Below are positions 2,749 through 20,839 of a DNA stretch of 35,351 nt, piece after piece. The DNA comes from a virus. The notes under the pieces were generated by a model. The model made no database searches and was not told the DNA's origin. It saw only the letters and a program-made list of their open reading frames with translations. A program made the translations under genes and the position numbers. The stretch spans positions 1-35,351 of the IMG/VR virus record IMGVR_UViG_3300040856_002686. One strand, 5' to 3'. Position 1 is the first letter of the stretch; every line of letters begins with the position of its first letter.

Positions 2749-3390
2749 ATGGCAGCAACAAAAACTACAACTAGAAAAAGAACAACAATAAAAAAAACAG
2801 AAGAACCTTTAGAATTGAATTTAGAAACACTTATAAAGTTTCATGGGTATTGGGATGAAGCACATCAATGGTTGAAAAATTTTATTAATAAAAATGATCT
2901 TAAAACTGGAGTTGAGATTGGTGTTGCATTCGGGGCAAATATGAAAGTTCTTCTAGAAGAAACTGAACTAGAAAAACTTTTTGGCGTTGATTCCTATGTC
3001 AAGGATACCTGGGATCTTGGTGGGTTTCTTGATGTTGATAAGGAATTTGGATCATTCGATTTATTATATGAACATGTTAAGCAGTTTCTGTCTGAATATG
3101 GATCGAGAGCAAATCTAATTCGTATGACATCTGAACAAGCATCAATAAAATTTAAAAATGAAAGTTTAGATTTTGTTTTTATTGATGGAGATCATACTGA
3201 CATCGAAAACGATCTAAAATATTGGGAATCAAAAGTTCGTGATGGTGGATATATTATTGGTCACGATTGGAATCATCCAAGTTTTGGTAATATTACTGAG
3301 TATCTAAAAACAAGATTTGATGAAGATCAACTAGTTGGAATTGATGGCCCAGTGCATATTTGGTATGTTCAAAAAGGAGCATTCATGTAA
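2749..3390 (+). CDS. Class I SAM-dependent methyltransferase (Methyltransf_24-like)
   Basis: 213 residues. A basic Lys/Thr-rich N-terminus (first ~20 residues) precedes a Rossmann methyltransferase. Motif I is GVEIGVAFGANM, motif II ends in FGVDSY, and motif IV is LDFVFIDGDHT, followed by GGYIIGHDW. The IDGDH plus GGYIIGHDW pattern is typical of Methyltransf_24 / cephalosporin-hydroxylase-like enzymes found in surface polysaccharide clusters. The stop codon directly abuts the next ATG. Its target could be a sugar or an amino-sugar intermediate; the sequence does not tell. Confidence 0.8.
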   Translation: MAATKTTTRKRTTIKKTEEPLELNLETLIKFHGYWDEAHQWLKNFINKNDLKTGVEIGVAFGANMKVLLEETELEKLFGVDSYVKDTWDLGGFLDVDKEFGSFDLLYEHVKQFLSEYGSRANLIRMTSEQASIKFKNESLDFVFIDGDHTDIENDLKYWESKVRDGGYIIGHDWNHPSFGNITEYLKTRFDEDQLVGIDGPVHIWYVQKGAFM

Positions 3391-4716
3391 ATGAGTTTTG
3401 ATTATAGACAATGTATTGATTTTGCTAAAAATTATCTTCCAAAAAATCCTGTATTCTTTGATGTTGGGTGTAATATTGATCCTATTGTAGAAAGGGATAA
3501 TGCGGAATGGATTGAAAATTGGAATGATGATTTTACTGGATTGTTTTTAAATGAAATTTCAAGTGCAAATTGTTTTGCTATAGAACCATTGCACTATGCA
3601 ACATTTGAAAATAGATGGGGTAATGACGTTAGAATAAATCTAATAAAAATTACTTTATCGGATAAAGATGGAACTGAAACAATATATTATCCGGGAGAAA
3701 GACATGTTCTTTCTAGTTTTTATGTGCAGGATGAGTTTAACGGGGAATTCTTAAATTCAATTGAAATTGAGTGTAAAAAATTAGATACATTATCCCAAGA
3801 ACTTGGTTTGGGTGGTATTGATTATTTGAAATTAGATATTGAGGGTGCAGAATATAAAGCACTTTTAGGATCTAGAGAATTATTGGAGCAGAAGAAGATA
3901 ACTTTCATTCAATTTGAGTATGGACTTCTAGGTGGGAATATTCCTTCTGTCAAATTAATTTACGATCTTCTCTCTGGATATGGATACCGTAAAATTCTTG
4001 TTTCTGGTAGAGAACAATTATGGACTCATTTGAAAGTTTATAATTTATCTCCTACATGTCAGATACCTGATTTGGATGAAATTTATTATAAGTATTTTGG
4101 ATTTAGAGTCGGGGTGTTTGTTGAGGTTGGTGCATTTGATGGAGAATCTGTTTCTAATACATCTTGTCTTGCAGATTGTGGGTGGGAAGGATTCTATATT
4201 GAACCAGTAAAAAAACATTATCTTGAGTGTTTAGAAAGACATCAGAAAAATAATGTTAAAGTTTCTAACCTTGCCATCGGAACGGAAGAAGGGGCGCAAA
4301 AAATATATTCATCTGGAATAGTATCAACATTAGATCCAGAACATTCTGAGATGTTATCTTATATGGAAATATTTGGTTATCCGCAATTCTCATTGGAAGA
4401 ATGTGAGCAAGTTAGACTTGATACTTATTTGAATCAAAATAATATTCCTAAAAATTTTGATTTATTGGTTGTTGATGTTGAGGGTAGGGAAAACGATGTT
4501 TTTTCTTCTTTTGATCTCAATGAGTGGAGACCAAAAATGCTAATAGTCGAACTTGTAGACGACCATGCGCATTTTCAACATAATAAAAATTTAATAAATT
4601 CTTGTTCCAATTTAAGAGGATATATAAAAGATAACGGATATACTGAAGTATTTCGTGATCATATAAACACTATTTTTGTTCTGAATGACTATATCACTGG
4701 CAATACCAACATATAA
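3391..4716 (+). CDS. Tandem two-domain FkbM methyltransferase
   Basis: 441 residues with two FkbM-like domains in one chain. The first (~20-205) has VFFDVGCN at motif I, FAIEP, and DYLKLDIEGAEYKALLGS. The second (~235-430) has VFVEVGAFDGE, GFYIEPVKKHY and LLVVDVEGRENDVFSSF. Single FkbM proteins are ~200-280 residues, so this is a fusion or internal duplication of diverged copies. Together with the gene at 2122 and the C-terminus of the 6261 gene, the island carries four FkbM-like folds. The 3' end overlaps the next gene by 32 nt. Two different methylation positions on one glycan is a reasonable inference, not shown. Confidence 0.8.
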   Translation: MSFDYRQCIDFAKNYLPKNPVFFDVGCNIDPIVERDNAEWIENWNDDFTGLFLNEISSANCFAIEPLHYATFENRWGNDVRINLIKITLSDKDGTETIYYPGERHVLSSFYVQDEFNGEFLNSIEIECKKLDTLSQELGLGGIDYLKLDIEGAEYKALLGSRELLEQKKITFIQFEYGLLGGNIPSVKLIYDLLSGYGYRKILVSGREQLWTHLKVYNLSPTCQIPDLDEIYYKYFGFRVGVFVEVGAFDGESVSNTSCLADCGWEGFYIEPVKKHYLECLERHQKNNVKVSNLAIGTEEGAQKIYSSGIVSTLDPEHSEMLSYMEIFGYPQFSLEECEQVRLDTYLNQNNIPKNFDLLVVDVEGRENDVFSSFDLNEWRPKMLIVELVDDHAHFQHNKNLINSCSNLRGYIKDNGYTEVFRDHINTIFVLNDYITGNTNI

Positions 4717-5431
4717 TAGTTCTCAATATTTTTGGGATTGTATAAAACCTGCTATTCATAATGATTTTATTGGGGAGATTGTAATCCACGATGATTACTC
4801 TTCTCAGTCTGAATACGCAAATATTCTTGAAATAGTTTATAATCTTAATACAAATAAAATAAAAGTATATAGATCTGAAAAAAATCAAAAAGCATATATT
4901 AATAAGTATCTTTCTATCTCAAAGTGTACTAATGATTGGGTTTATTTGTTTGATAGTGATAATTGGTTTGACGAATCTATAATTGATGTAATAAGTAAAT
5001 TGGATTATAATAAAACAAATATTTGCTATTTGATTGATCAATTAAATGTCACTGATGGTAATATAATAGTATTTGATTATGAAGATAAAGTGTTAAATTT
5101 GAGAATAATAAAAGAATATATTGAAAAAAAGATACATCATATTGACTGGGTTTTAAATACTGGAAATTTTATATGCAATAAAAACGCATATTTAAATTCC
5201 CAAAAACCTGCAGTAGATTCTTTTTTATCTAATGATGGGAAATTTAATAACCCAAAGGGATGTGATGTTTTATTATTTTCATATTATTGGTTGATGTCCA
5301 ATAATTCTTTTGAGATTGTAGATGGATTTTATCACAATCATCGTATTCGTCCCGGAAATTATTTTGTAGAAGAACTGTATGAGAACATGAAAATGGTTGG
5401 AGAATACCTAGACAAAATTTTATTACTATGA
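4685..5431 (+). CDS. Family 2 (GT-A) glycosyltransferase
   Basis: 248 residues. The N-terminus MTISLAIPTYNSSQYFWDCI is the usual GT2 first strand. IVIHDDYSS and the DSD metal/nucleotide-sugar motif (residues 90-92, in WVYLFDSDNWFD) follow at the expected distance. The C-terminal half has no second clear motif, and the enzyme is near the lower size limit for GT2. It overlaps the upstream gene by 32 nt and the downstream gene by 4 nt (ATGA), implying translational coupling. The acceptor sugar is unknown. Confidence 0.85.
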   Translation: MTISLAIPTYNSSQYFWDCIKPAIHNDFIGEIVIHDDYSSQSEYANILEIVYNLNTNKIKVYRSEKNQKAYINKYLSISKCTNDWVYLFDSDNWFDESIIDVISKLDYNKTNICYLIDQLNVTDGNIIVFDYEDKVLNLRIIKEYIEKKIHHIDWVLNTGNFICNKNAYLNSQKPAVDSFLSNDGKFNNPKGCDVLLFSYYWLMSNNSFEIVDGFYHNHRIRPGNYFVEELYENMKMVGEYLDKILLL

Positions 5432-6264
5432 TTACATTTCCACATATAGGATATATTGGAAGACTTGGAAATCAGTTATTTCAATATTCTGCTTTATTTT
5501 CAATATCTAAAAAACATAATTGTGACTTTTCTCTTCTCGATTCTAATTTAGAACTATATAAGTGCTTTAAGTTAAAAACAAAAGTTTCTCCATATTATAA
5601 TAAGGACTTTATTTGTGTACATAAACTTGGTAATGATATAATTACTGATTATAATACAATATTTTTAACTGACAATGATCAATATAATAAAATATTAAGC
5701 ACAAATTTTGATCATAATTTCTATAATACAAATCATGATCATAAAAGTATTTTTGGGTTTTTTCAAAATTATAAGTATTTTTCACAATACGAAAATGAAC
5801 TTAGAAGTCAACTTAAATTCAGGAGAGGTTATAATGCAATTTCTGACTTATATCTTAGTCAGAAATATTCTGGAGATGAACTATTAAGTATTCATATAAG
5901 AAGGACAGATTACTTAAATTCTTCTGTGTTAAATAATTTGGACCTATCTTATTATGAAAATGCATTAATTTATTTTGATAGATCTCTTCCAGTGTTAGTT
6001 TTTTCGGATGATCCAAAATGGTGCCAAGAACAAACACTATTCAAGGATGATAGGTTCACTATAGTAAAAAGTAATAATACTTATATTGATTTGTGCTTGA
6101 TGTCAAAATGTGATTATCACATCATCGCTAATAGTTCTTTTAGTTGGTGGGGTTCTTGGTTAGCACAAAGCAAAAAAACTATATGTCCTAGACAATGGTT
6201 TTCATTAGATTATAATTTTCTAGACTCTGACGGATTAAGATTACCAAATTGGATTTCAATATGA
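5428..6264 (+). CDS. Family 11 glycosyltransferase (alpha-1,2-fucosyltransferase-like)
   Basis: 278 residues. All three GT11 motifs are present: GRLGNQLFQYSALF at 11-24, HIRRTDY at 156-162 (the HxRRxDY GDP-fucose site), and NSSFSWWGSWLA near residue 235. GT11 enzymes transfer fucose in alpha-1,2 linkage onto galactose, in bacteria mostly in O-antigen or capsule. Length is normal for the family. It has ATGA overlaps on both sides. It implies a fucose-containing glycan on virion or host surface, using GDP-fucose from the host since no fucose synthesis genes are in the window. Confidence 0.88.
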   Translation: MITFPHIGYIGRLGNQLFQYSALFSISKKHNCDFSLLDSNLELYKCFKLKTKVSPYYNKDFICVHKLGNDIITDYNTIFLTDNDQYNKILSTNFDHNFYNTNHDHKSIFGFFQNYKYFSQYENELRSQLKFRRGYNAISDLYLSQKYSGDELLSIHIRRTDYLNSSVLNNLDLSYYENALIYFDRSLPVLVFSDDPKWCQEQTLFKDDRFTIVKSNNTYIDLCLMSKCDYHIIANSSFSWWGSWLAQSKKTICPRQWFSLDYNFLDSDGLRLPNWISI

Positions 6265-9218
6265 ATGTATCAATAATTTGCGCATGTAAAAATCGTTATG
6301 ATGCTCTTAGAGTTTCTCTAAACTCTTGGATGGCATTCGATGAAATTAAAGAAATTATCATTGTTGATTGGAGTTCGGATGAACCAATTAACCATCTTAC
6401 AAAATTAGATAAAAGAATTAAAATCATTAGAGTTAATGATGAAAAGTATTTCAATCAACCACAACCATTGAATCTTGCTGCTAGTATTGCAACAGGAGAT
6501 TATATTCTTAAAATGGACTGTGACTATATGCTCAATCCATATTTTTCTTTTTTTAAAGAATATCAAATTGATGATAAATCATTTCTGTGCGGGCAAGATT
6601 CTTATGTATGTAAACATGAATATTGGGACGAAAACCTAAAGGGTTATGCAATTAATGTTCATCAAATGGATCTTGATGAAATGATGAAATATCAACATTC
6701 ATATAGTCCTTTTTACAAGTATCTTACTGGTCTTTGTTTTGTGTCTAGAGAAAACTATTGGAAAGTTGGTGGTTATGATGAAAGGATGGGAAAATATTAT
6801 GCATATGAAGACGACCAAATGACCAAAAGGTTGTCTATGATGGGATTAGAATGTAAAAAGTTAAAGCAAGATTACAATATTATCCATATTCCGCATCCAG
6901 ACAAAAAAAGATATGAAAATTTTGAAGGATATGGAGAAGACTCTGGTGATAACGATATTGAAAATGTAAAACGAAAAATTGATGATCCAAATACATCACA
7001 ATCTGATCGCTGGCAAATGGAATATTTACTGGCAAAAATTAATGTTGAATATAATGAAGAACTATTCTCACAATTAAAAGACTATTATATTGATAGAATT
7101 TATGATTGGGAAGTTGTAAATATTGATGATCAAAATTACTTTGCTACTAGAAAGGAAAAAATTAATAAACTTTCTGGATTGAATACTGTATATTATGTTA
7201 GTCTTGAAGAAAGTAAAGATAGACAAAAGAAGATAGAAAAAAGATTAACAGAATACGGTGTAAAAAACATCAAGTCAATCATTTCTAAAAGGTTTACTGA
7301 GTGTGATGATGTAGTCACTGGTAAGTATGTTGATACACTTAATGATGGTACTAAGGGTTGTTGTGTATCTCATCTAAAGGCAATCAAAGATTGGTATGAA
7401 ACGACTGATGATGACTATGGATTTTTCTGTGAAGATGATCTAAGTCTTGATACTGTTGATTATTGGAACTTTACATGGAATGAATTTATTGAAAATCTTC
7501 CCGAAGATTGGGGGTGTATCCAGATGCTTCCTATTCGTGGAGACTATGGAGACATCAAGATCAGAGATCGTTATTGGGATGATTGGTCAGTAACTGCTTA
7601 TATTATTAAAAGGGAGTATGCCAAATACATTATAGATAATTATATTGTTGATGGAACATATCATCTTGAATTAAGAGATGCTGAAGTTCAACCTTTGATT
7701 GAAAACATCTTATATACGAGTGCTGGAAAAGTTTATACGATTCCAATGTTTGTAGAAGATGTTGGATTCACATCAACATTTGAAGGTGGGGATGGTGATG
7801 TAAAAGATGGGCAAAAAAGAAATCATTATTATGCCCACGATTATATTATAAATTGGTGGAAAGACAATGGAGAACAAAGAACTATTGAGGAACTTATGGG
7901 AAGGTCATTTGAAATTAAAATGGTTGAAGAATCAGTTGTAAAAAAAGAAATAATCGTTGACATTACAAAAGCAAACCTTAATGATCTGCTATTAGAGTAT
8001 GCTTTAGACACTGAGAATCCAGTTAAAAACTTTAATCTTGGTATGTGGTATGAACACCACAGACATAATGCACCAGCATTATCATTTTTCTTGAGATGTG
8101 CTGAGAGGACTGATGATGATTTGCTTGCTTATGAAGCATTGATTCACGCTTCTAATGCTTATGATCGTCAGGGAACTAGGGATCAAACAGCAAAGGGACT
8201 TCTACAACAAGCATTGTGTATAATGCCTAAGAGACCAGAAGCATATTATTTACTTTCCAGATTTGCTGAAAAAAGAGAATGTTGGCAAGAATGTTATATT
8301 ATGGCGCAGTGGGGAATTGATTTTTGCGATTTTAATTGCAAACCATTGCATACTGATGTTGAATATCCAGGAAAGTATTGTCTTATTTTTGAAAAGGCAT
8401 TGGCGGCATGGTCATGGGGTAAAGGAAGTGAAACAAGAGAACTTCTTATTGATTTAAAGAACAATTATAAACTGGATGATAATCATTTTACTCTTGTTCG
8501 TAATAATTTAATAAAAGTTGGTTCGGGTGATATTGTTGAAAAGGATTATAATTTAGATGAAAATAAAACTAGAATATTTAAATATAAATTTGATGGTATT
8601 GAGAAAATAAAGAAAAATTATTCACAATTGTTCCAAGATGTATTTGTTCTTTCTGTATTGGACGGAAAAGAAAATGGAACATATCTGCAGATTGGTTACA
8701 CTGATACTGTATACAAAAATAATACAACATTACTTGAACAAACATTTGGGTGGAAAGGAGTTTCTATATGTGAAGATGATGAATTAAATACTAGATTTTC
8801 TCAAGAACGAAGGAATACATATTTCTGTGGTGAGGTAGAATTACTTGATTATTCCAAGATTCTTAGTGATATGAATACTGGGGATATCATAGATTATTTG
8901 CAAATCGATTCTGGTAATGTTAAAAAATCATTTGAAACTCTTTTGTCAATTCCATTTGATGATTATAAATTTAGGATTGTGACATTTAAACACGATTACT
9001 ATATGGATATGACCAATGGGTATCGTGATAAATCTCGTAAATATTTTAAATTATGTGGATATAAATTAGTTGTATCTGATGTTTCTTCTGATGGAATTAA
9101 TTCATGTGAAGATTGGTGGTATAATCCAGCAACTATTGATAGTAGATTTATTGATAAATTTAAATCAAACTCCACTGAAGTTGTAAATATTGTTAAATAT
9201 ATGTTTAGAGATCAATAA
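6261..9218 (+). CDS. Four-part fusion: GT2 + GT25-like + TPR-like + FkbM-like
   Basis: 985 residues from ATG 6261, whose ATGA overlaps the upstream stop; the in-frame TTG at 6249 is rejected. Domain 1 (~1-215) is a GT-A transferase: SIICACKNRYDAL, DCD at 86-88, and the galactosyltransferase C-terminal signature GGYDERMGKYYAYEDDQM near 170-187. Domain 2 (~305-500) resembles GT25 of LPS synthesis: YYVSLEESKDRQKKIEKRL, GCCVSHLKAIKDWY, and the acidic FFCEDDL at 388-394. Domain 3 (~575-755) is helical and TPR-like. Domain 4 (~785-950) matches FkbM in layout (NYSQLFQDVFVL, FGWKGVSI), but motif I reads TYLQIGYTDT, so SAM binding may be lost. It closes the island. The fusion suggests an assembled glycan-building enzyme; substrates are unknown. 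Confidence 0.8.
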   Translation: MNVSIICACKNRYDALRVSLNSWMAFDEIKEIIIVDWSSDEPINHLTKLDKRIKIIRVNDEKYFNQPQPLNLAASIATGDYILKMDCDYMLNPYFSFFKEYQIDDKSFLCGQDSYVCKHEYWDENLKGYAINVHQMDLDEMMKYQHSYSPFYKYLTGLCFVSRENYWKVGGYDERMGKYYAYEDDQMTKRLSMMGLECKKLKQDYNIIHIPHPDKKRYENFEGYGEDSGDNDIENVKRKIDDPNTSQSDRWQMEYLLAKINVEYNEELFSQLKDYYIDRIYDWEVVNIDDQNYFATRKEKINKLSGLNTVYYVSLEESKDRQKKIEKRLTEYGVKNIKSIISKRFTECDDVVTGKYVDTLNDGTKGCCVSHLKAIKDWYETTDDDYGFFCEDDLSLDTVDYWNFTWNEFIENLPEDWGCIQMLPIRGDYGDIKIRDRYWDDWSVTAYIIKREYAKYIIDNYIVDGTYHLELRDAEVQPLIENILYTSAGKVYTIPMFVEDVGFTSTFEGGDGDVKDGQKRNHYYAHDYIINWWKDNGEQRTIEELMGRSFEIKMVEESVVKKEIIVDITKANLNDLLLEYALDTENPVKNFNLGMWYEHHRHNAPALSFFLRCAERTDDDLLAYEALIHASNAYDRQGTRDQTAKGLLQQALCIMPKRPEAYYLLSRFAEKRECWQECYIMAQWGIDFCDFNCKPLHTDVEYPGKYCLIFEKALAAWSWGKGSETRELLIDLKNNYKLDDNHFTLVRNNLIKVGSGDIVEKDYNLDENKTRIFKYKFDGIEKIKKNYSQLFQDVFVLSVLDGKENGTYLQIGYTDTVYKNNTTLLEQTFGWKGVSICEDDELNTRFSQERRNTYFCGEVELLDYSKILSDMNTGDIIDYLQIDSGNVKKSFETLLSIPFDDYKFRIVTFKHDYYMDMTNGYRDKSRKYFKLCGYKLVVSDVSSDGINSCEDWWYNPATIDSRFIDKFKSNSTEVVNIVKYMFRDQ

Positions 9219-9223
9219 ACTGT

Positions 9224-9628
9224 ATGGATAAATACCAAATCAGTAGAGTTCTTGAGGTATTTGATGGTTCATCATTTGAAGGAATAATTGATTTGGGTAT
9301 GGGAGTTTATCTCAAGAAAAAAATATTTTTATCTGGGATTCTCTCCCCTATAAATAATGAGAATGAAAAAGAATATTGGCAGCAAGCAAAAGATAAACTA
9401 ACATACTATCTTAGACATGCTGTTAGTGGATGTGTATATGTCCATGTTGATGAATATCATGATGATTATGTATATGGAGTAGTTTACACTAATGAGTTTG
9501 AAAACTCATTAAATTGGATTATGTTTTTGAAAGGTTATGTGTGGGATGATGGTATAGATCTTCCTTCGCAAGAAAATAAAAAAAGAGAAACTTATGTTTT
9601 GAATACACCAAATACGAGGTTAAAATGA
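9224..9628 (+). CDS. Degenerate staphylococcal-nuclease-fold protein (predicted inactive)
   Basis: 134 residues. It aligns without gaps over ~60 residues to the intact SNase encoded at 14529-14870 on the other strand: RVLEVFDGSSFE against INRIVDGDTVD, and KKKIFLSGILSPIN against NQRIRLSGINAPET. All catalytic positions are changed: Asp16 to Ser, Arg35 to Phe, Glu43 to Ile, Arg84 to Tyr. The OB-fold is therefore probably retained while nuclease chemistry is lost, suggesting a binding or structural role. It starts 5 nt after the glycan fusion gene and overlaps pcyA by 4 nt (ATGA). Confidence 0.65.
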   Translation: MDKYQISRVLEVFDGSSFEGIIDLGMGVYLKKKIFLSGILSPINNENEKEYWQQAKDKLTYYLRHAVSGCVYVHVDEYHDDYVYGVVYTNEFENSLNWIMFLKGYVWDDGIDLPSQENKKRETYVLNTPNTRLK

Positions 9629-10329
9629 GAGATTTACACCCATTAATTCAAAGTCTTGCTGATTCAATTTTGGATAGTTGGAATGAGCACTTTGAAATGA
9701 AAGAAATAGAAATACCAGAAGAATTTGGTAGAATTGAAAAATCTTCTGGAGATGAAGAAGAAGTTTATATTGAAAACTATGTATGGGAAACTGAAAAGTT
9801 TAGGAAGATTCATTTGGAAGTTGCCCAGATGAAATCTGGACTTGATATTCTTCATACAAATATGTACCCGAGATATGAGTATGATTTACCGATCTTTGGT
9901 GCTGATATTGTTGCATCTTCAAAATCAGTTGGAGCGGCAATTGTTGATATTAGTTCTATTAAAGAAGATAGATCACTTCCAGAGTCTTATAAAATTTTGG
10001 ATATTGTATCTGATCGAGAATTTGAGAAAGATAAAAAAATGCCTGAGTGGGGGGATGTATTCTCCGAGTACTGTGTATTTGTGAGTCCGACTGAAGAAGA
10101 ATATAATAAGTTTGTAAATATAGCATTTACATATTTAAACTATCATTGTGCTATTTCTAATATTACTAAACCTGTTGGGAATGTTCAAGAAAATTATGAG
10201 GGGCATAAACATTACTGTGAAAAGCAAAGAAAAAATAATAAAACTAGAGGAGTTTTAAAGAGTATTTTTGGTGATGAATTTGCTGATAAATATATTTCAG
10301 AAATGTTATTTGATTACCCAGAGATCTAA
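9625..10329 (+). CDS. pcyA: Phycocyanobilin:ferredoxin oxidoreductase PcyA
   Basis: 234 residues, full length for ferredoxin-dependent bilin reductases. It matches PcyA more closely than PebA/PebS: HPLIQSLADSI, FRKIHLEVAQ, SGLDILHTNMYP, LPIFGADIVAS, EWGDVFSEYCVFVSP, HYCEKQRKNNKTRGVL and EMLFDYP all have PcyA counterparts. The catalytic Glu76-His88-Asp105 of Synechocystis PcyA correspond here to Glu65, His77 and Asp94, with identical spacing (12 and 17). The enzyme reduces biliverdin by four electrons to phycocyanobilin using reduced ferredoxin. It has a GAGG ribosome site and an ATGA overlap with the dead SNase gene. A phage ferredoxin is encoded at 12077. Confidence 0.95.
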   Translation: MRDLHPLIQSLADSILDSWNEHFEMKEIEIPEEFGRIEKSSGDEEEVYIENYVWETEKFRKIHLEVAQMKSGLDILHTNMYPRYEYDLPIFGADIVASSKSVGAAIVDISSIKEDRSLPESYKILDIVSDREFEKDKKMPEWGDVFSEYCVFVSPTEEEYNKFVNIAFTYLNYHCAISNITKPVGNVQENYEGHKHYCEKQRKNNKTRGVLKSIFGDEFADKYISEMLFDYPEI

Positions 10330-10749: not shown

Positions 10750-10784
10750 TTGACAAAACTTGGGACCAGTGCTATCCTAAATAG
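10750..10784 (+). promoter_or_regulatory. Promoter of the outer-membrane protein gene
   Basis: -35 TTGACA (10750-10755), a 17-bp spacer and -10 TATCCT (10773-10778). The overlapping CTAAATAG (10777-10784) resembles a late box. The gene starts at 10823, leaving a leader of about 40 nt. Confidence 0.65.
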
Positions 10785-10822
10785 GTGTTGAGGATTCTGT
10801 TGTAATTCTTAACACTTTTTAA

Positions 10823-11686
10823 ATGTCGTTTAGTACTAAGACACTTATGTTTATTCGCTCTATTATTGCTGCCACTGCTGCTGTTGCTACTGCTGCTCCT
10901 GCTATGGCTGCTCCACTTTCTGATGTTCAACCAACTGATTGGGCATATCAGGCAATCGTAAACCTGAACACAGAGTATGGTTGCCTCGTTGGTTTCCCCG
11001 ATGGAACTTTCCGTGGTGGTGAACCTGCTACCCGCGATCAAATGGCAGCACTTGTAAATCACTGCCTGGATAATATTAGTGCTTTCACTAGTGCCGAAGA
11101 TGCCAAACTCGCTGCTGCACTTCGTGCCACCAATGGTCGCGTAAATACTCTTGAAGTTGCCGCTGCACAGAAGGCAGAAGGTGTTGGTAACTACCTCGGT
11201 GCTGGTGTGCTCCTGAACCAGCAAGGCACTGCTGGTAACGGTTACGATGCTGAGCGTACCATCTCTGGTGGTACTATCCAAGCACGTTACGCTGCCAAGA
11301 CCTTCAGTAACCAGAATGCTATCTCTGTTCGTCCTTATGCGAACTTTGTTGGCACTCCTTCTGGTGAAATCGGCGCTGGTGGCGGTGCTCTGCTGTCCTA
11401 TGACTGGAGCATTTCTCGTGCCAAGTCTGGTGTAAGCCGTGCTAACATCTACACTGGTGTTGGTTACCAGATTCCTTTCGTAAACAACACCGCTGCTAAC
11501 TATCAGTCTGCTGTTGGTGAGAGGGGTCAAGTTGTTCTTGCTGTGGGTGTTGAAGGTCGTCTGACCAACTCTCTTGTTGGTTTTGCTGATCTGAAGTTCC
11601 CCACTACCACTGCTGCTAACAGTTATGGTACTACTGGTGGTACTTATTCACCAGTGTTCACCACTGGTCTTGGTTTCAAGTTCTGA
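10823..11686 (+). CDS. SLH-domain outer-membrane beta-barrel protein (mini-porin-like)
   Basis: 287 residues. A signal peptide (hydrophobic Ala-rich stretch to PAMA, ~30; the start could also be ATG 10850) is followed by one SLH domain (~32-85, LSDVQPTDWAYQAI, GFPDGTFRGG, ATRDQMAALVNHCLD). Next come a short helical linker (SAEDAKLAAALRATNGRV) and ~185 residues of alternating beta strands ending in GLGFKF with terminal Phe, the outer-membrane barrel signature. SLH-linker-barrel is the plan of cyanobacterial porins (SomA/OprB type), but those are ~500+ residues; this barrel could hold about 8 strands. The gene is GC-richer and more host-like in codon use than the island before it, suggesting host origin. 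Likely exported by the host to its outer membrane during infection; a virion role is not excluded. Confidence 0.8.
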   Translation: MSFSTKTLMFIRSIIAATAAVATAAPAMAAPLSDVQPTDWAYQAIVNLNTEYGCLVGFPDGTFRGGEPATRDQMAALVNHCLDNISAFTSAEDAKLAAALRATNGRVNTLEVAAAQKAEGVGNYLGAGVLLNQQGTAGNGYDAERTISGGTIQARYAAKTFSNQNAISVRPYANFVGTPSGEIGAGGGALLSYDWSISRAKSGVSRANIYTGVGYQIPFVNNTAANYQSAVGERGQVVLAVGVEGRLTNSLVGFADLKFPTTTAANSYGTTGGTYSPVFTTGLGFKF

Positions 11687-11710: not shown

Positions 11711-11733
11711 GGGGGTTGACATGAACCCCCTTT
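11711..11733 (+). terminator. Hairpin, possible terminator, overlapping a -35 box
   Basis: GGGGGTT (11711-11717), loop GACATG, AACCCCC (11724-11730), then TTT. It lies 25 nt after the outer-membrane protein stop. The T-run is short, so termination may be partial. The hairpin contains the TTGACA of the next promoter. Confidence 0.45.
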
Positions 11734-11745
11734 CTCATATATACT
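11716..11745 (+). promoter_or_regulatory. Sigma70-type promoter of hli
   Basis: TTGACA (11716-11721), an 18-bp spacer and TATACT (11740-11745). ATG of hli follows at 11772. Confidence 0.7.
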
Positions 11746-11771: not shown

Positions 11772-11981
11772 ATGACTGTTACAAAAAATGAGTTCGGGCA
11801 AATGAATGTGTTTGCTAAAGAACCTACGATGTGGATGTCTAAAGAAGACATTGAACGTTATGGTTTTGAACCTTATGCTGAGAAGGCAGAAAAGATGAAT
11901 GGTCGTTGGGCAATGCTTAGTATCATCTCAGGTATCATCTCTTATGCTGCTACTGGCAAACTGTTCTTTGGTATCTTTTGA
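11772..11981 (+). CDS. hli: High-light-inducible protein (single-helix chlorophyll-binding)
   Basis: 69 residues from ATG 11772; the frame is open further upstream but only through the terminator and promoter. The C-terminal half is the Hli signature [16 protein letters not shown], one transmembrane helix with the chlorophyll-binding E-x-x-N-G-R-x-A-M motif, ending in [10 protein letters not shown]. Hli proteins sit in the thylakoid membrane near photosystem II and protect against excess light; phage copies are thought to keep photosynthesis running during infection. It is preceded by its own sigma70-like promoter and followed at once by the ferredoxin promoter, whose -35 begins 3 nt after the stop. 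Confidence 0.95.
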
Positions 11982-12076: not shown

Positions 12077-12373
12077 ATGACCACTTTTAATGTTACTCTT
12101 CAGTCCCCTGATGGTACTGAAACTACTATTGAATGTCCTGATGATATGTACATTCTTGAAGCAGCAGAAGAAGCAGGTGTTGACCTAAACTACTCTTGTC
12201 GTGCTGGTGCTTGTTCTTCTTGTGCTGGTAAACTTATTTCTGGTACTGTAGATAATGAGGAACAGTCGTTCCTTGATGATGAGCAACAAGCAGAAGGTTG
12301 GGTTCTAACTTGTGTAGCATATCCAACTAGTGACTGTGTTATTCTTACAGAGCAAGAGGAGAACCTGAATTGA
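12077..12373 (+). CDS. petF: [2Fe-2S] plant-type ferredoxin
   Basis: 98 residues from ATG 12077; an upstream in-frame ATG at 11978 lies before the promoter and is rejected. The four cluster cysteines are Cys41, Cys46, Cys49 and Cys79 in [14 protein letters not shown] and VLTCVAYP, with the canonical CX4CX2CX29C spacing. The protein is acidic at the C-terminus like photosynthetic ferredoxins. It would carry electrons from photosystem I to acceptors; PcyA, encoded 1.7 kb upstream, is the obvious phage partner because bilin reduction is ferredoxin-dependent. Partner specificity is inference. It has its own promoter. Confidence 0.95.
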
Positions 12374-12538: not shown

Positions 12539-12658
12539 ATGAAATTCGGTTTTACCCCTGAGGCAGAAATCCTTAACAGTCGTCTCGCAATGCTTGGATT
12601 TGTAATTGCCGTGGGAACTTATCTCACTACTGGTCAAATTATTCCAGGCGTATTCTGA
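12539..12658 (+). CDS. hli: Short high-light-inducible protein (39 aa)
   Basis: 39 residues: MKFGFTPEAEILNSRLAMLG followed by FVIAVGTYLTTGQIIPGVF. This is the minimal Hli core: the E-x-x-N-S-R-x-A-M helix with Asn-Ser in place of Asn-Gly, plus the C-terminal TGQ tail. The ribosome site AAGGAGAA lies 8 nt upstream. The protein is the shortest form of the family seen in cyanophages. It shares the transcript with petF and the 44-residue protein, and a strong terminator follows 23 nt after the stop. Confidence 0.92.
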   Translation: MKFGFTPEAEILNSRLAMLGFVIAVGTYLTTGQIIPGVF

Positions 12659-12879: not shown

Positions 12880-14145
12880 ATGCAAATAGAACTAACAAAT
12901 TTCTTTATATACTTTGATGAAAAGAACCCAAAACATCTTGCTGCTGCAGATGATTTTGAAAGATTGCTTCTGGAAAAAGCACCAGAACTTCTAGAAGATG
13001 ATTCAAACTGGGTGAGAATTTACAGGGCAAGAAATAAAACATCTAATGAAATACTATTAGATGTTCCTTGGTATCCCCAAACAGATAACTATAGACTTCC
13101 AGATAGTACTTGCAACTCTTCTGCTTGTGCTATGTATCTTGAATTTCTTAAACCTGGATCTTTACCATCAGGACCAAAGGGTGATGATGCTTATTTGAAG
13201 AAGGTATTAGCACTTGGAGATTCAACTGATCATTCAATTCAGACGAGAGTTTTGGAATCTTATGGGATCAAGTCTACATTTAAGTACAATTTAGGTTTTG
13301 ATGATTTGGATGCTGAACTTCTTGCGGGTCGTCCGGTAGTTCTTGGAATTCTACATCGTGGACCAGAAACTGCACCTACAGGGTCTGGACATATGATTGT
13401 TTGTATTGGTAAAACTGAGAGTGGAGATTATTATGCACATGACCCTTATGGTTCCATTTATGATGGGTATACAAAAGCAGTAACAAATGGGAAAGGAGTT
13501 ATCTATAAGAAATCTACCTTAGAAAGACGATGGACGGTTAAGAATCCAAAAGATGGTTGGGGAAGAATCTTTGAACCCGTAAAAAAAGTAGAAGAGGCAC
13601 CATCACAGGGTGGTGCCTTACCAACCAAAAAGCAACTAGCATACATTTGGAATTGTCAAGAGTCTCTTATTAAAGATGAGGAAGTTTCAGAACTTCATAA
13701 ATGTTTGTTGGAATTTGATATAACAACAAAACCAAGAATAAGACACTTCTTGGCACAATGTTCACATGAAAGTAATGGTGGTCGTTGGATGAAAGAACTT
13801 GCTTCTGGTTGGGATTATGAAGGTAGAAAAGATCTAGGTAATACTCAAAATGGTGATGGTCCCAGGTATAAGGGTGCTGGATTTATTCAATTAACTGGAA
13901 GATATAATTATCAAAAGTTTTCTGACTATATCAAAGACCCAAAGGTGATGGGTGGTGTTAATTATGTTGCAGAGAACTATGCATTTACTGCTTCGGGATT
14001 CTGGTGGATGTCGAATAAAATGAATCAATTGTGTGACTCAGGTGCAACATGCCGTCAGGTATCTGCAAGAGTTAATGGTAGAGACCCTGCTAATGGACTT
14101 GCAGACCGTGAGAAATATTATAAGAGATGTTGTGAGATTATTTAA
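12880..14145 (+). CDS. Bifunctional endolysin: C39-like peptidase + GH19 glycosidase
   Basis: 421 residues with two wall-degrading domains. N-terminal (~60-235): C39/papain-like peptidase with Gln67 (PWYPQTDN), nucleophile Cys78 (DSTCNSSACAM), His171 (GSGHMIVCIG) and Asp188 (YYAHDPYG) in family order. C-terminal (~250-421): GH19 chitinase/lysozyme with HFLAQCSHESNGG (catalytic acid Glu297) and RYKGAGFIQLTGRYNY, the GH19 signature. GH19 phage enzymes cut peptidoglycan glycan strands; the C39 half may cut the peptide. No signal peptide, so release needs a holin. Late expression is likely from the box at 12690. A terminator lies just past the stop. Confidence 0.88.
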   Translation: MQIELTNFFIYFDEKNPKHLAAADDFERLLLEKAPELLEDDSNWVRIYRARNKTSNEILLDVPWYPQTDNYRLPDSTCNSSACAMYLEFLKPGSLPSGPKGDDAYLKKVLALGDSTDHSIQTRVLESYGIKSTFKYNLGFDDLDAELLAGRPVVLGILHRGPETAPTGSGHMIVCIGKTESGDYYAHDPYGSIYDGYTKAVTNGKGVIYKKSTLERRWTVKNPKDGWGRIFEPVKKVEEAPSQGGALPTKKQLAYIWNCQESLIKDEEVSELHKCLLEFDITTKPRIRHFLAQCSHESNGGRWMKELASGWDYEGRKDLGNTQNGDGPRYKGAGFIQLTGRYNYQKFSDYIKDPKVMGGVNYVAENYAFTASGFWWMSNKMNQLCDSGATCRQVSARVNGRDPANGLADREKYYKRCCEII

Positions 14146-15234: not shown

Positions 15235-16980
15235 ATGGACAAAAAATTAAAATCTCCAAAAGAATTATTTGAAGAAAAGCAATTGTTAATTTTAGATGAA
15301 TCTGAACAAAAAAATCAAATAAAAGAAAATTTAGAATTTGAAAAACAGTACTCTAAAATAATAAGTCCAAAATTATTTTTTGGGGAAAATATTGAATTGT
15401 GTGAAGAAGATGGTGGTGTAGTAGAAGATAATATTTATCCAGAAGAAACTTATGCTAAAGAAGATGAAGAAAATAATGTAAAATCTTTTTTAGTTTATTT
15501 GTTTGATAATGTTAATTATCTTAAAGAGAATGTGGAGACTACAAAAAAATATAATAAAGAAATAAAATTTCTTAAAAAACATATAAAGATATTAGAAAAT
15601 GAAATACTAAATGATGAGGAATTTGATCCTAGTCATTTATATGAGAGCATCTCAAATCTAAAATATGAAATACAAAAAGTTAGATCTGAAATACCTGAGA
15701 TACCAGAACCTATATTATATGATGATCAATTAGAAGATCTTAAAAATATTATTTTAAATGTAAAAGAGTCTATTCCTATTGTACCGGAAATAAAATATTA
15801 TGATGATGATCTCAATGATTTGTTAGAAAGTGTTCAAAGTATCAGAACACAAGTAGAAGAATTTCCAGAAGTAAAATATTATGATTATCAGATAAAAATA
15901 GTTGAAGATAAAATAGAAAAAATTAAGGAATCTATTCCAGTTGTTCCAGAAATAAAATATTATGATGAAGATATAAGTTATCTTAGTGAAAAAATTAGTC
16001 ATGTAAAATCTTCTATACCAGAAATACCTGAAATAAAATATTATGATAATCAAATAGAAGATATTGAATGTAAAATAGAAGAACTAAAAACAACGATAGA
16101 TTCTTTACCACCTTTACCAGAAGTTAAGTACTATGATGATGATATTAATAAACTTGTAGAAAATTTAAGTGATATAAAAAATACAATAAAGAATTTACCA
16201 GAACCAAAATATTACGAGGAAGAACTTAAATTATTCGATCAGAAACTTGAATCAATAAAATTACTTATTCCAGAACCACAAACAATCCCAGAAATAAAGT
16301 ATTATGACAATGAGATATCAGATTTGAGAAATGATATCTCATTACTATCAAATAAAATATCTTCAATTAAAATCCCAAGTACAAAAAAATATGATGATAG
16401 ATTAGATGAATTTTATAGTAAATTTGATAAAAAAAATGAAGAACTTACTCAGAAAATAAAATGTCTTGAAGAAATTTTTGAATATTTTAACAATACTCAG
16501 GAGGAAGTTTTAAATGAGTCTACGGTAACAGAACCACCACAAACGGATAATGAAGATCCACTTACTCCTTTAAATCAACAGTTTGTAACATTCAAACAAC
16601 TTCAAGAGCATTATCAACTCTTTATTAGCAGAATACAGCAGCAGTTATCTACTCTCGGTGGTGGTGGCGAAACCCAACTAAAGTATCTAGATGATATCGT
16701 TGGGATATCGACTAATGCTAGTTTTTATGATGGAAAATATTTAAGATATAATCATTCAATCCGTAAGTTTGAGTTTTCTCAAGTTATTGGTGATGGTGGA
16801 GAATTTGAGGCTAAAGTTACAAATCTTTTCGATGTTGATACATCGAATCTCAATAATGGATATTTGATGGTATATGATCAGTCTTCAGAAACTTTTGTTT
16901 TTGTTAATCCACAGACATATTTCGGCATTAACGCCGATTATAATCCGGACCCATCTGTTGCTGATTATGGAACTTATTAA
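15235..16980 (+). CDS. Virion structural protein with 27/30-residue KYYD repeats
   Basis: 581 residues. The first ~150 are acidic and helical. Residues ~159-388 are tandem repeats built as P-E-I/V-K-Y-Y-D followed by a coiled-coil segment with Ile/Leu heptads and ending I-P. The KYYD lysines fall at 187, 214, 241, 268, 298, 325 and 355, with degenerate copies at both ends, giving 27- or 30-residue spacing. The C-terminal ~130 residues (LGGGGETQLKYLDDIVGI, YDGKYLRYNHSIRKFEF, YLMVYDQSSETFVF) resemble small fibre/bead domains of cyanophage structural proteins. Late promoter upstream. Probably an elongated tail or neck fibre; the exact part is unknown. Confidence 0.75.
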   Translation: MDKKLKSPKELFEEKQLLILDESEQKNQIKENLEFEKQYSKIISPKLFFGENIELCEEDGGVVEDNIYPEETYAKEDEENNVKSFLVYLFDNVNYLKENVETTKKYNKEIKFLKKHIKILENEILNDEEFDPSHLYESISNLKYEIQKVRSEIPEIPEPILYDDQLEDLKNIILNVKESIPIVPEIKYYDDDLNDLLESVQSIRTQVEEFPEVKYYDYQIKIVEDKIEKIKESIPVVPEIKYYDEDISYLSEKISHVKSSIPEIPEIKYYDNQIEDIECKIEELKTTIDSLPPLPEVKYYDDDINKLVENLSDIKNTIKNLPEPKYYEEELKLFDQKLESIKLLIPEPQTIPEIKYYDNEISDLRNDISLLSNKISSIKIPSTKKYDDRLDEFYSKFDKKNEELTQKIKCLEEIFEYFNNTQEEVLNESTVTEPPQTDNEDPLTPLNQQFVTFKQLQEHYQLFISRIQQQLSTLGGGGETQLKYLDDIVGISTNASFYDGKYLRYNHSIRKFEFSQVIGDGGEFEAKVTNLFDVDTSNLNNGYLMVYDQSSETFVFVNPQTYFGINADYNPDPSVADYGTY

Positions 16981-19025: not shown

Positions 19026-20317
19026 ATGACCGCTTCAATCGCTCAGAAGCGCCAAGTAGGTGCTTGGGAGCAGTTCTGTGAGTGGGTAACTTCCACTGAA
19101 AACCGCCTTTATGTGGGTTGGTTTGGAACGCTAATGATCCCAACCCTTCTCGCAGCAACTATTTGCTTCATTGTTGCTTTCGTCGCTGCCCCTCCCGTCG
19201 ATATTGACGGCATCCGTGAACCTGTTGCTGGTTCACTCATGTATGGAAACAACATCATCTCTGGTGCTGTTGTTCCTTCGTCCAATGCTATTGGACTGCA
19301 CTTCTATCCCATCTGGGAAGCCAACTCACTTGATGAATGGCTATATAATGGTGGACCATTTCAACTGGTCGTCTTCCATTTTCTAATCGGTATCTATGCC
19401 TACATGGGTCGTGAGTGGGAACTTTCCTACCGTCTGGGTATGCGTCCTTGGATCTGCGTTGCTTATAGTGCTCCTGTTGCCGCTGCTTCTGCAGTGTTCC
19501 TTGTCTATCCTTTCGGTCAAGGTTCCTTCAGTGATGCAATGCCTCTTGGAATCTCGGGCACGTTTAACTACATGCTCGTCTTCCAAGCAGAACACAACAT
19601 TCTCATGCATCCTTTCCACATGCTCGGTGTGGCTGGGGTATTTGGTGGCAGCCTCTTTAGTGCTATGCACGGAAGTTTGGTTACGTCTTCACTCGTTCGT
19701 GAAACAACTGAATCCGAATCCCAAAACTATGGATACAAGTTCGGACAAGAAGAAGAGACCTACAACATTGTAGCTGCTCATGGTTACTTCGGTCGCTTGA
19801 TCTTCCAATACGCTTCATTCAACAACTCTCGTTCACTCCACTTCTTCTTGGCAGCATGGCCAGTAGTGGGTATCTGGTTCACCGCACTTGGTGTATCCAC
19901 GATGGCTTTCAATCTCAACGGGTTTAACTTTAATCAGTCTATCGTTGAGAGTCAAGGTCGTGTGATCAACACATGGGCAGACGTTCTTAACCGTGCTGGA
20001 CTGGGAATGGAGGTAATGCACGAGCGTCAAGTTGTGCTTTGCGCTCTTTAAATCGGATGAATTGCTGGAAACCCCAAGTGGGCAATCAGCAGCCAAGTCC
20101 TGGATACATCCAGGAAAGGTTCAGAGACTACCTGAGGAATACAGTTTCCTTAATAACAGGTTCAAGCGTCCGACACCAGAAATGGTGATGATATAGTCCA
20201 ATCCTGATAGTAATATCAGACAGTTAGGGAAAGTTTAAGAATGCACACAACTTCCCTCTTGACCTGGCATCAGCAGAATCTACTCCTGTAGCACTTACTG
20301 CTCCTTCCATCGGTTGA
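19026..20317 (+). CDS. psbA: Photosystem II D1 protein, split by a group I intron
   Basis: Exons 19026-20027 and 20240-20317 join in frame to 359 residues. Functional residues fall at standard D1 numbers: Tyr161, Asp170, Glu189, His190, His198, His215, Ser264, His272, His332 and Glu333 in exon 1; His337, Asp342 and Ala344 in exon 2. Glu130 (MGREWE) marks the high-light D1:2 type. Without splicing, the reading frame stops after seven wrong residues (QVVLCAL) and lacks Asp342 and Ala344 of the manganese cluster. D1 turns over quickly in light, and phage copies replace it when host synthesis stops. GC and codon use are host-like. Terminator at 20344; leader with late box upstream. Confidence 0.97.
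20028..20239 (+). ncRNA. Group I self-splicing intron in psbA (212 nt)
   Basis: P1: exon GAGCGT (20022-20027) pairs with intron GCGCTC (20041-20046), with the diagnostic U-G pair at the 5' splice site. P10: exon 2 AATGCAC (20240-20246) pairs with GTGCTTT (20034-20040) with one mismatch. P7: GACTA (20126-20130) with TAGTC (20194-20198). P6-like hairpin CCTGGAT/ATCCAGG around 20099-20114. The last intron base is G (20239). No ORF inside. A psbA intron of this kind at a conserved position is known from cyanophage S-PM2. Confidence 0.93.
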
Positions 20318-20413: not shown

Positions 20414-20839
20414 ATGACTAAATTGTATTCTGACCTTTATAGAACTTGCATGACTTGTGGGGAAGAAAAAAGTATTCTTGAATTTTATTTTCGTGATAAA
20501 AAAACTGGTAGAAGACACTCTGCATGTAAAGAATGTGATAAAGCAAGAGTGAAGGCAAGACATCAAGCAAACCCAGAACGCACAAGAAATAATGATCTGA
20601 AAAGAAACTATGGTATAACTCTTGAAGAACATACAAAAATGTATGAAGAACAAAATGGACGATGTGCTATTTGTGGTAATGAAGGTAATGGTAAGTGGAA
20701 AAAGTTATGTGTAGACCATTGTCATACCACTGGTAAGGTTAGAAAACTACTCTGCAACAACTGCAACACCGCACTGGGGCTGGTAGGAGACAACACCCAC
20801 ATCCTCCAAAGCATGATAGAATACTTGGAAGCACTCTAA
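20414..20839 (+). CDS. Free-standing HNH homing endonuclease (endonuclease VII-like)
   Basis: 141 residues. The N-terminus has two CxxC pairs (CMTCGEEKS, CKEC; a zinc ribbon). The C-terminus has the endonuclease VII/HNH beta-beta-alpha-metal core: CAICG, LCVDHCHTTGKVRKLLCNNC, then NTALGLVGDN. Genes just downstream of psbA in some cyanophages encode F-CphI, an HNH enzyme that cuts intronless psbA near the intron insertion site and so spreads both itself and the intron. Position and family here match; target specificity is inferred. It has its own promoter and terminator. It can also be read as a resolvase-like nuclease. Confidence 0.85.
   Translation: MTKLYSDLYRTCMTCGEEKSILEFYFRDKKTGRRHSACKECDKARVKARHQANPERTRNNDLKRNYGITLEEHTKMYEEQNGRCAICGNEGNGKWKKLCVDHCHTTGKVRKLLCNNCNTALGLVGDNTHILQSMIEYLEAL

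Follow-up and report, generated by a model that had tools for sequence, protein, structure and literature searches.

In Synechocystis, the porins that join an S-layer homology (SLH) domain to an OprB barrel bind peptidoglycan; Slr1841 is essential, loss of Slr1908 leads to hypervesiculation, and Lpp is absent from cyanobacteria (PMC8707739). The order of SLH domain, stalk and outer-membrane barrel recurs in SlpA of Deinococcus and in OmpM of Veillonella (8bys, 8bym, 8bz2), and OmpM is a demonstrated outer-membrane tether (PMC10628300). Among isolated phages, the closest protein is p168 of S-PM2 (CAF34233, Q5GQG9). The passages on this gene in PMC2984593, which cite Clokie 2006, describe early and abundant transcription and suggest protection against infection or grazing. 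Beyond these passages, our literature search for a phage SLH porin turned up a single table row, which concerned a different S-layer-domain gene. Both the S-PM2 gene and the idea of protection were thus already known, the former long annotated as a "putative S-layer protein" and the latter proposed in 2010, so that the idea raised in our first-pass annotation was not a new one. What appears to be new is the barrel as a separate outer membrane protein (OMP) family, a fusion absent from the cells searched, and the existence of short and long alleles at shared loci.

The window analysed here, that is, the whole 35,351-nucleotide stretch of IMG/VR record IMGVR_UViG_3300040856_002686, is a T4-like cyanophage record (gp32, gp53, PhoH, Thy1, psbA). 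Coordinates written with two dots below refer to the + strand. The gene of interest (10847..11686) encodes a 279-residue protein that is 87.8% identical to S-PM2 p168 over 279 aa, has the same architecture and is likewise followed by hli genes. A tRNA-Gly gene precedes p168 by 45 bp, whereas the window has none, and the S-PM2 label names only an S-layer protein, leaving the barrel unnamed. The open reading frame opens at 10823, but since most homologues, p168 included, begin at the Met at 10847 and leave the in-frame ATG at 10823 unused, the later start is preferred and the first 8 codons of ORF 10823-11686 are probably untranslated. The gene is real and not a chance ORF, because relatives are encoded in 362 IMG/VR stretches and dN/dS between homologues is 0.09-0.18, a sign of purifying selection. 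An antisense ORF at 10772-11530 was taken as a shadow ORF.

The protein starts with a Sec-type signal peptide, MFIRSIIAATAAVATAAPAMA (10847..10909), which was judged by eye; it is alanine-rich and ends in PAMA ahead of a cut before Ala, with P18 and A21, the latter just before the cut, invariant in 51 homologues. A single SLH domain, of the cell-wall-binding type, follows at residues 24-67 (10916..11047; PF00395, 31.5 bits against a cut-off of 20.8). This region carries two conserved Cys that are present also in the full-length porins, and it was poorly modelled by AlphaFold2 (pLDDT mostly <55). Residues 68-115 (11048..11191) are predicted, at low to moderate confidence, to form a helical stalk. 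The remainder, residues 116-279 (11192..11683), is a predicted OmpA/OmpX-like barrel, for which the AlphaFold2 model built with 33 phage homologues places 8 beta strands in residues 116-278, mostly at pLDDT 75-94 with weaker loops. A second family member modelled with 51 sequences gave the same 8 strands. Hydrophobic alternation, taken strand by strand, exceeded that of shuffles (p = 0.0015), and all 33 aligned members end in Phe, the window protein finishing in FKF. The plan read from the letters alone (signal peptide, one SLH domain, helices and a barrel ending in Phe) was therefore borne out by PF00395, the models and the alignment, except that the barrel expected at ~185 residues comes to about 164. 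Sequence and model together give good support to a phage-encoded, exported SLH protein with an outer-membrane barrel.

When both models were compared with the PDB, Foldseek returned OmpA, Ail, OprG, OmpW, OmpX and NspA with probability 1.00, and the TM domain of OmpA (1qjp) gave a TMt of 0.67-0.69. The OprB barrel PF04966 had no match to the window protein up to E 5, while it gives 55.3 bits with the S-SRM01 porin. The porin family NF033921 (por_somb) scored 66.6 bits, below its cut-off of 100, over profile positions 6-71 of 485, which is the SLH end only. PF13505 gave no direct match up to E 5 in any of the 33 members, and the link of the barrel to it runs only through an alignment of small cyanobacterial OMPs (A3, see below). 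PF24653 (Phage_OMP) matched none of 13 records at E <= 1, including the window, S-PM2 and S-CREM1, and PHROGs had no clear family for the gene. The barrel is thus predicted to belong to the small, 8-stranded OmpA/OmpX size class, separate from the OprB porins. The Lom protein of phage lambda and other Ail/OmpX-like phage proteins are also 8-stranded outer-membrane barrels, but they come from temperate phages and lack an SLH domain. A half-size OprB porin was ruled out by the absent OprB match and the different fold. The first-pass annotation had described a half-size copy of the cyanobacterial porin plan; this held for the N-terminal half, but the barrel is of a different, smaller family, and the term "porin-like" was not upheld.

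We also considered a component of the virion or a true S-layer protein, as the S-PM2 annotation would imply, and regard it as extremely unlikely, given a signal peptide and a predicted membrane barrel. An S-layer protein forming a self-assembling extracellular array was rejected because the part outside the SLH domain is the predicted barrel. S-CREM1 virions are described as containing 14 proteins (4 structural, 9 unknown and 1 without a database match), which would leave no obvious place for the porin annotated in that phage.

Since the barrel is predicted to be 8-stranded and OmpA/OmpX-like, a general pore through the short-form protein is unlikely, although some 8-stranded barrels such as OmpW let small hydrophobic molecules through. 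This bears directly on the proposal that the phage makes a porin that raises or changes the uptake of solutes such as iron or phosphate during infection. The S-CREM1 relative is annotated as an "iron uptake porin", and the genomic slots in question also hold full-length phage porins of the por_somb family. Genes 169 and hli2 of S-PM2, just downstream, rise under phosphate starvation, and for S-PM2d in a phosphate-starved host genes 169 and 172, downstream of p168, are reported to rise (PMC10976474). However, the S-PM2 SLH gene is missing from the rows listed there as phosphate-responsive, and the 8 strands, the lack of an OprB match and the score below the porin-family cut-off make a change in nutrient uptake through a pore, one of the roles first suggested for the window protein, very improbable. 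The porin reading could still hold for the long form.

The architecture resembles that of a known tether. The window protein follows the OmpM-type order of SLH domain, helical stalk (here a low-confidence model) and C-terminal barrel, and it matches OmpM in sequence (E 1.7e-13). OmpM barrels are 16-stranded and trimeric, whereas the window protein has 8 strands in two monomer models. The cyanobacterial SLH-OprB porins (Slr1841/Slr1908, SomA type; NF033921) share its signal peptide, single SLH domain and stalk, but are proteins of 490-690 aa with an OprB barrel in place of the 8-stranded one. We propose, as a reading that we hold about as probable as its negation, that the protein is a phage-made outer-membrane tether that replaces the SLH porins of the host. 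It would be made early in infection, cross the inner membrane through Sec and fold in the host outer membrane, where its SLH end would grip the peptidoglycan-linked wall polymer. It would then stand in for the host SLH porins, which attach the outer membrane to the wall and which the infected cell may stop making; having little or no pore, it would hold the envelope together up to lysis. The same protein may also displace host porins from wall sites and alter the surface seen by other phages. For the short form we infer the membrane location, the wall binding and the lack of conductance from sequence and models.

The two halves of the protein have different relatives in cells. The phage profile matched porins in cyanobacterial genomes with about 100-128 bits over the SLH domain and stalk, and most of these matches stop at positions 118-126 of the profile (A1), near residue 105, at the end of the stalk; among the matches listed, some in porins of 540-695 aa extend past the stalk into barrel positions. 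The barrel profile alone, for which matches in phages served as positive control (1e-91 or better), had no match in 300 genomes from the family that includes Synechococcus WH7803, which is the family of the S-PM2 host. In the wider class it weakly matched 40 of 390 genomes, mostly in ORFs of about 170-280 aa. An alignment of 12 of these small secreted cyanobacterial proteins (A3), 11 of which match PF13505, aligned with the phage barrel at a probability of 98.7% (hhalign, E 1.7e-16; 36% identity over 140 columns). These proteins, OMP_b-brl proteins of about 176 aa, have a homologous barrel but, unlike the window protein, neither SLH domain nor stalk. With the SLH-stalk matching porins and the barrel matching small OMPs, sequence comparison shows the phage protein to be a porin-type SLH-stalk fused to a small OMP barrel. 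Short forms make up one clade of the SLH-stalk tree with support 1.0, and the fusion therefore probably arose once.

The fusion itself was not found, among the matches listed for the whole profile, in sets of 8 and 242 cyanobacterial genomes; of the short cellular matches retrieved, L209-L212 were truncated at contig ends and L213 carried a frameshift. A scan of 84,980 species genomes, with two barrel motifs only, returned no relative. The protein is common in cyanophages, and the fusion is absent from the cells searched. Four "host" sequences sit among the phage porins in the SLH-stalk tree, and a locus from a bacterial MAG labelled Microbacteriaceae (L085) encodes a porin that is 69% identical to the S-SRM01 phage porin; this and a few other "host" loci are possibly binned phage contigs.

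Within phages, a collection of 50,697 isolate records yielded matches in 6 records from 3 distinct phages: S-PM2 (88%), S-CREM1 (64%) and S-SRM01, annotated "porin" and matching in the SLH part only. Since only these 3 match, most cyanomyoviruses manage without a close relative of the window protein. The S-SRM01 gene encodes a complete SLH-OprB porin of 486 aa (por_somb, 286 bits). Full-length SLH-OprB porins were found in 505 viral stretches, many with hli, petF, psbA or a phage lysin gene as a neighbour; these genes (L004, L217-L296) are common in cyanophage contigs and seem to be little discussed in the literature. Like its IMG/VR relatives, the S-SRM01 long form shares SLH domain, stalk and genomic slots with the short form but carries the OprB barrel instead of the small one.

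The two forms were never found together in the records checked. Each of 22 phage records (the window, 8 other short-form and 10 long-form records, S-CREM1, S-SRM01 and S-PM2) had exactly one SLH match, a count that covers the record only, most being fragments in which a second SLH gene may lie outside; the small barrel was absent from all 10 long-form records. Of the short-form loci, 31 of 54 have a tRNA-Gly(TCC) no more than 400 bp upstream, as do 29 of 59 long-form loci. For an upstream GT25 glycosyltransferase gene the counts are 6 of 54 and 19 of 59, and in almost every one of these loci hli follows. In S-SRM01 the order is tRNA Arg-Asn-Thr-Gly, porin, Val-Ser-Pro, and in one short-form locus (L063) it is Asn-Thr-Gly, OMP, Val-Ser-Pro. 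When the DNA of a short-form locus (L025) was compared with that of a long-form locus (L218), similarity was about 70-90% ahead of the gene and about 67% in the SLH region, the barrels could not be aligned, and similarity rose to 91-99% shortly past the stop codon. Because the SLH region also diverges more than the flanks, the sequences indicate a swap of the whole gene; an exchange of the barrel alone was unsupported. Judged from these loci, short and long forms interchange at the same genomic slots, either after tRNA-Gly or between a glycosyltransferase gene and hli, a point that the first-pass annotation had missed.

In the window, the gene is preceded by a sigma70 promoter-like site with an extended -10 (TG), TTGACA-17-TATCCT (10750..10778), which has 10 of 12 consensus matches. 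Many homologues have TTGAC...TA...T within 250 bp upstream. Across the region, promoter-like sites number 23 and shuffled sequence has 22.3, so that such sites are not in excess, and the sole support for this one is its location upstream of the gene. Terminator-like sites do exceed the shuffled expectation (12 against 3.6). One such hairpin, GGGGGTTGACATGAACCCCC-TTTC (11711..11730), overlaps the -35 of the next promoter-like site, TTGACA-18-TATACT (11716..11745, from a sequence scan), which belongs to a downstream hli gene for a high-light-inducible protein (11772..11981; phrog_178, E 7.5e-28). The hli gene, found downstream in 33 of 54 short-form loci, is a conserved neighbour, as is petF ferredoxin (12077..12373; PF00111, E 3.6e-24). 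A second short hli of 39 aa (12539..12658; phrog_178, E 9.8e-19) and psbA follow, which confirms the setting among photosynthesis genes. A ferredoxin-dependent bilin reductase gene (9625-10329; PF05996, E 3.6e-56) has the ferredoxin gene 2 kb downstream. Further along are a tail-fibre-like protein with many PEIKYYDDxI-type repeats (15235-16980) and a group I intron (20018-20220; RF00028, 91 bits) near the psbA 3' end, which accounts for the unusual end of the psbA ORF, the rest of psbA lying behind the intron. An endonuclease-like ORF (20414-20839) comes after the remaining psbA, an arrangement similar to that in S-PM2, and a glutamine riboswitch (glnA leader, RF01739; 24778-24876) scores 38 bits, just above the cut-off of 35.

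At 12880-14145, near the OMP and hli genes, is an endolysin-like gene with C39-type peptidase and chitinase-like (GH19) domains. Its position 1.2 kb downstream, and the presence of such a gene no more than 6 kb away at some related loci, would suit a lysis helper that vies with the SLH porins of the host for binding sites on the wall and so weakens the envelope for the endolysin. We consider this quite improbable, since early transcription of the S-PM2 homologue fits poorly with an aid to lysis, and the lysin neighbour lies on either side of the gene and is absent from many loci. Expression before lysis, on the other hand, had been expected from the setting and agrees with what PMC2984593 reports of the S-PM2 gene.

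The strongest rival to a tether is superinfection exclusion or a defence against grazing, in which an early outer membrane protein would displace host porins or show new loops, leaving other phages unable to adsorb or inject. The transcription of the S-PM2 homologue and the protection proposed by those authors speak for it, and cyanomyoviruses reportedly lack the T4 r genes (superinfection, lysis inhibition). Glycosyltransferase genes (GT11; GT2 + GT25), possibly for surface glycans, lie upstream in the window (5428..9218), and part of the family has the gene directly behind GT25 (LPS-type) within a glycosyltransferase cluster. Allele swapping between two barrel types would also fit selection on an exposed surface. 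However, dN/dS points to purifying selection overall, and the other neighbours are photosynthesis genes. On balance we regard exclusion as rather unlikely. The wider stretch 2749-9218 holds two methyltransferase genes (one FkbM), the GT11 gene and a gene for a 989-aa protein with GT2, galactosyltransferase and GT25 matches, all possible surface-glycan genes.

The OMP gene has a GC content of 0.50 and a GC3 of 0.35, against about 0.2 in most genes tested, and members across the family are likewise richer in GC than their flanks. Recent acquisition from a host was rejected as the cause, the family being diverse, phage-only and of single origin. Since psbA is also GC-rich (GC3 0.47), high expression or an old origin is more likely.

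To return to the tether, a barrel without an expected pore fills the genomic slot of a porin, which suggests that anchoring, or the exposed surface, weighs more than transport. The full-length porins in the same slot could nevertheless mean that a pore, or exposed loops, is the key property. We tentatively suggest, while thinking it somewhat more apt to be wrong than right, that lytic cyanophages keep one gene for linking the outer membrane to the wall and swap pore-forming and pore-less versions of it. Writing on cyanophage auxiliary genes has been dominated by photosynthesis genes, and the labels "S-layer protein" and "iron uptake porin" are both misleading. The pair of short and long alleles offers a direct way to ask whether the pore or the tether alone is needed. 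SLH porins are essential or stabilising in cyanobacteria, and the phage protein is thus a handle on outer-membrane-to-wall attachment. If the proposal is true, it would represent an envelope takeover of a form not described for lytic phages in the available sources, one in which the phage would control the anchoring of the infected cell's outer membrane together with its permeability or its receptor surface.
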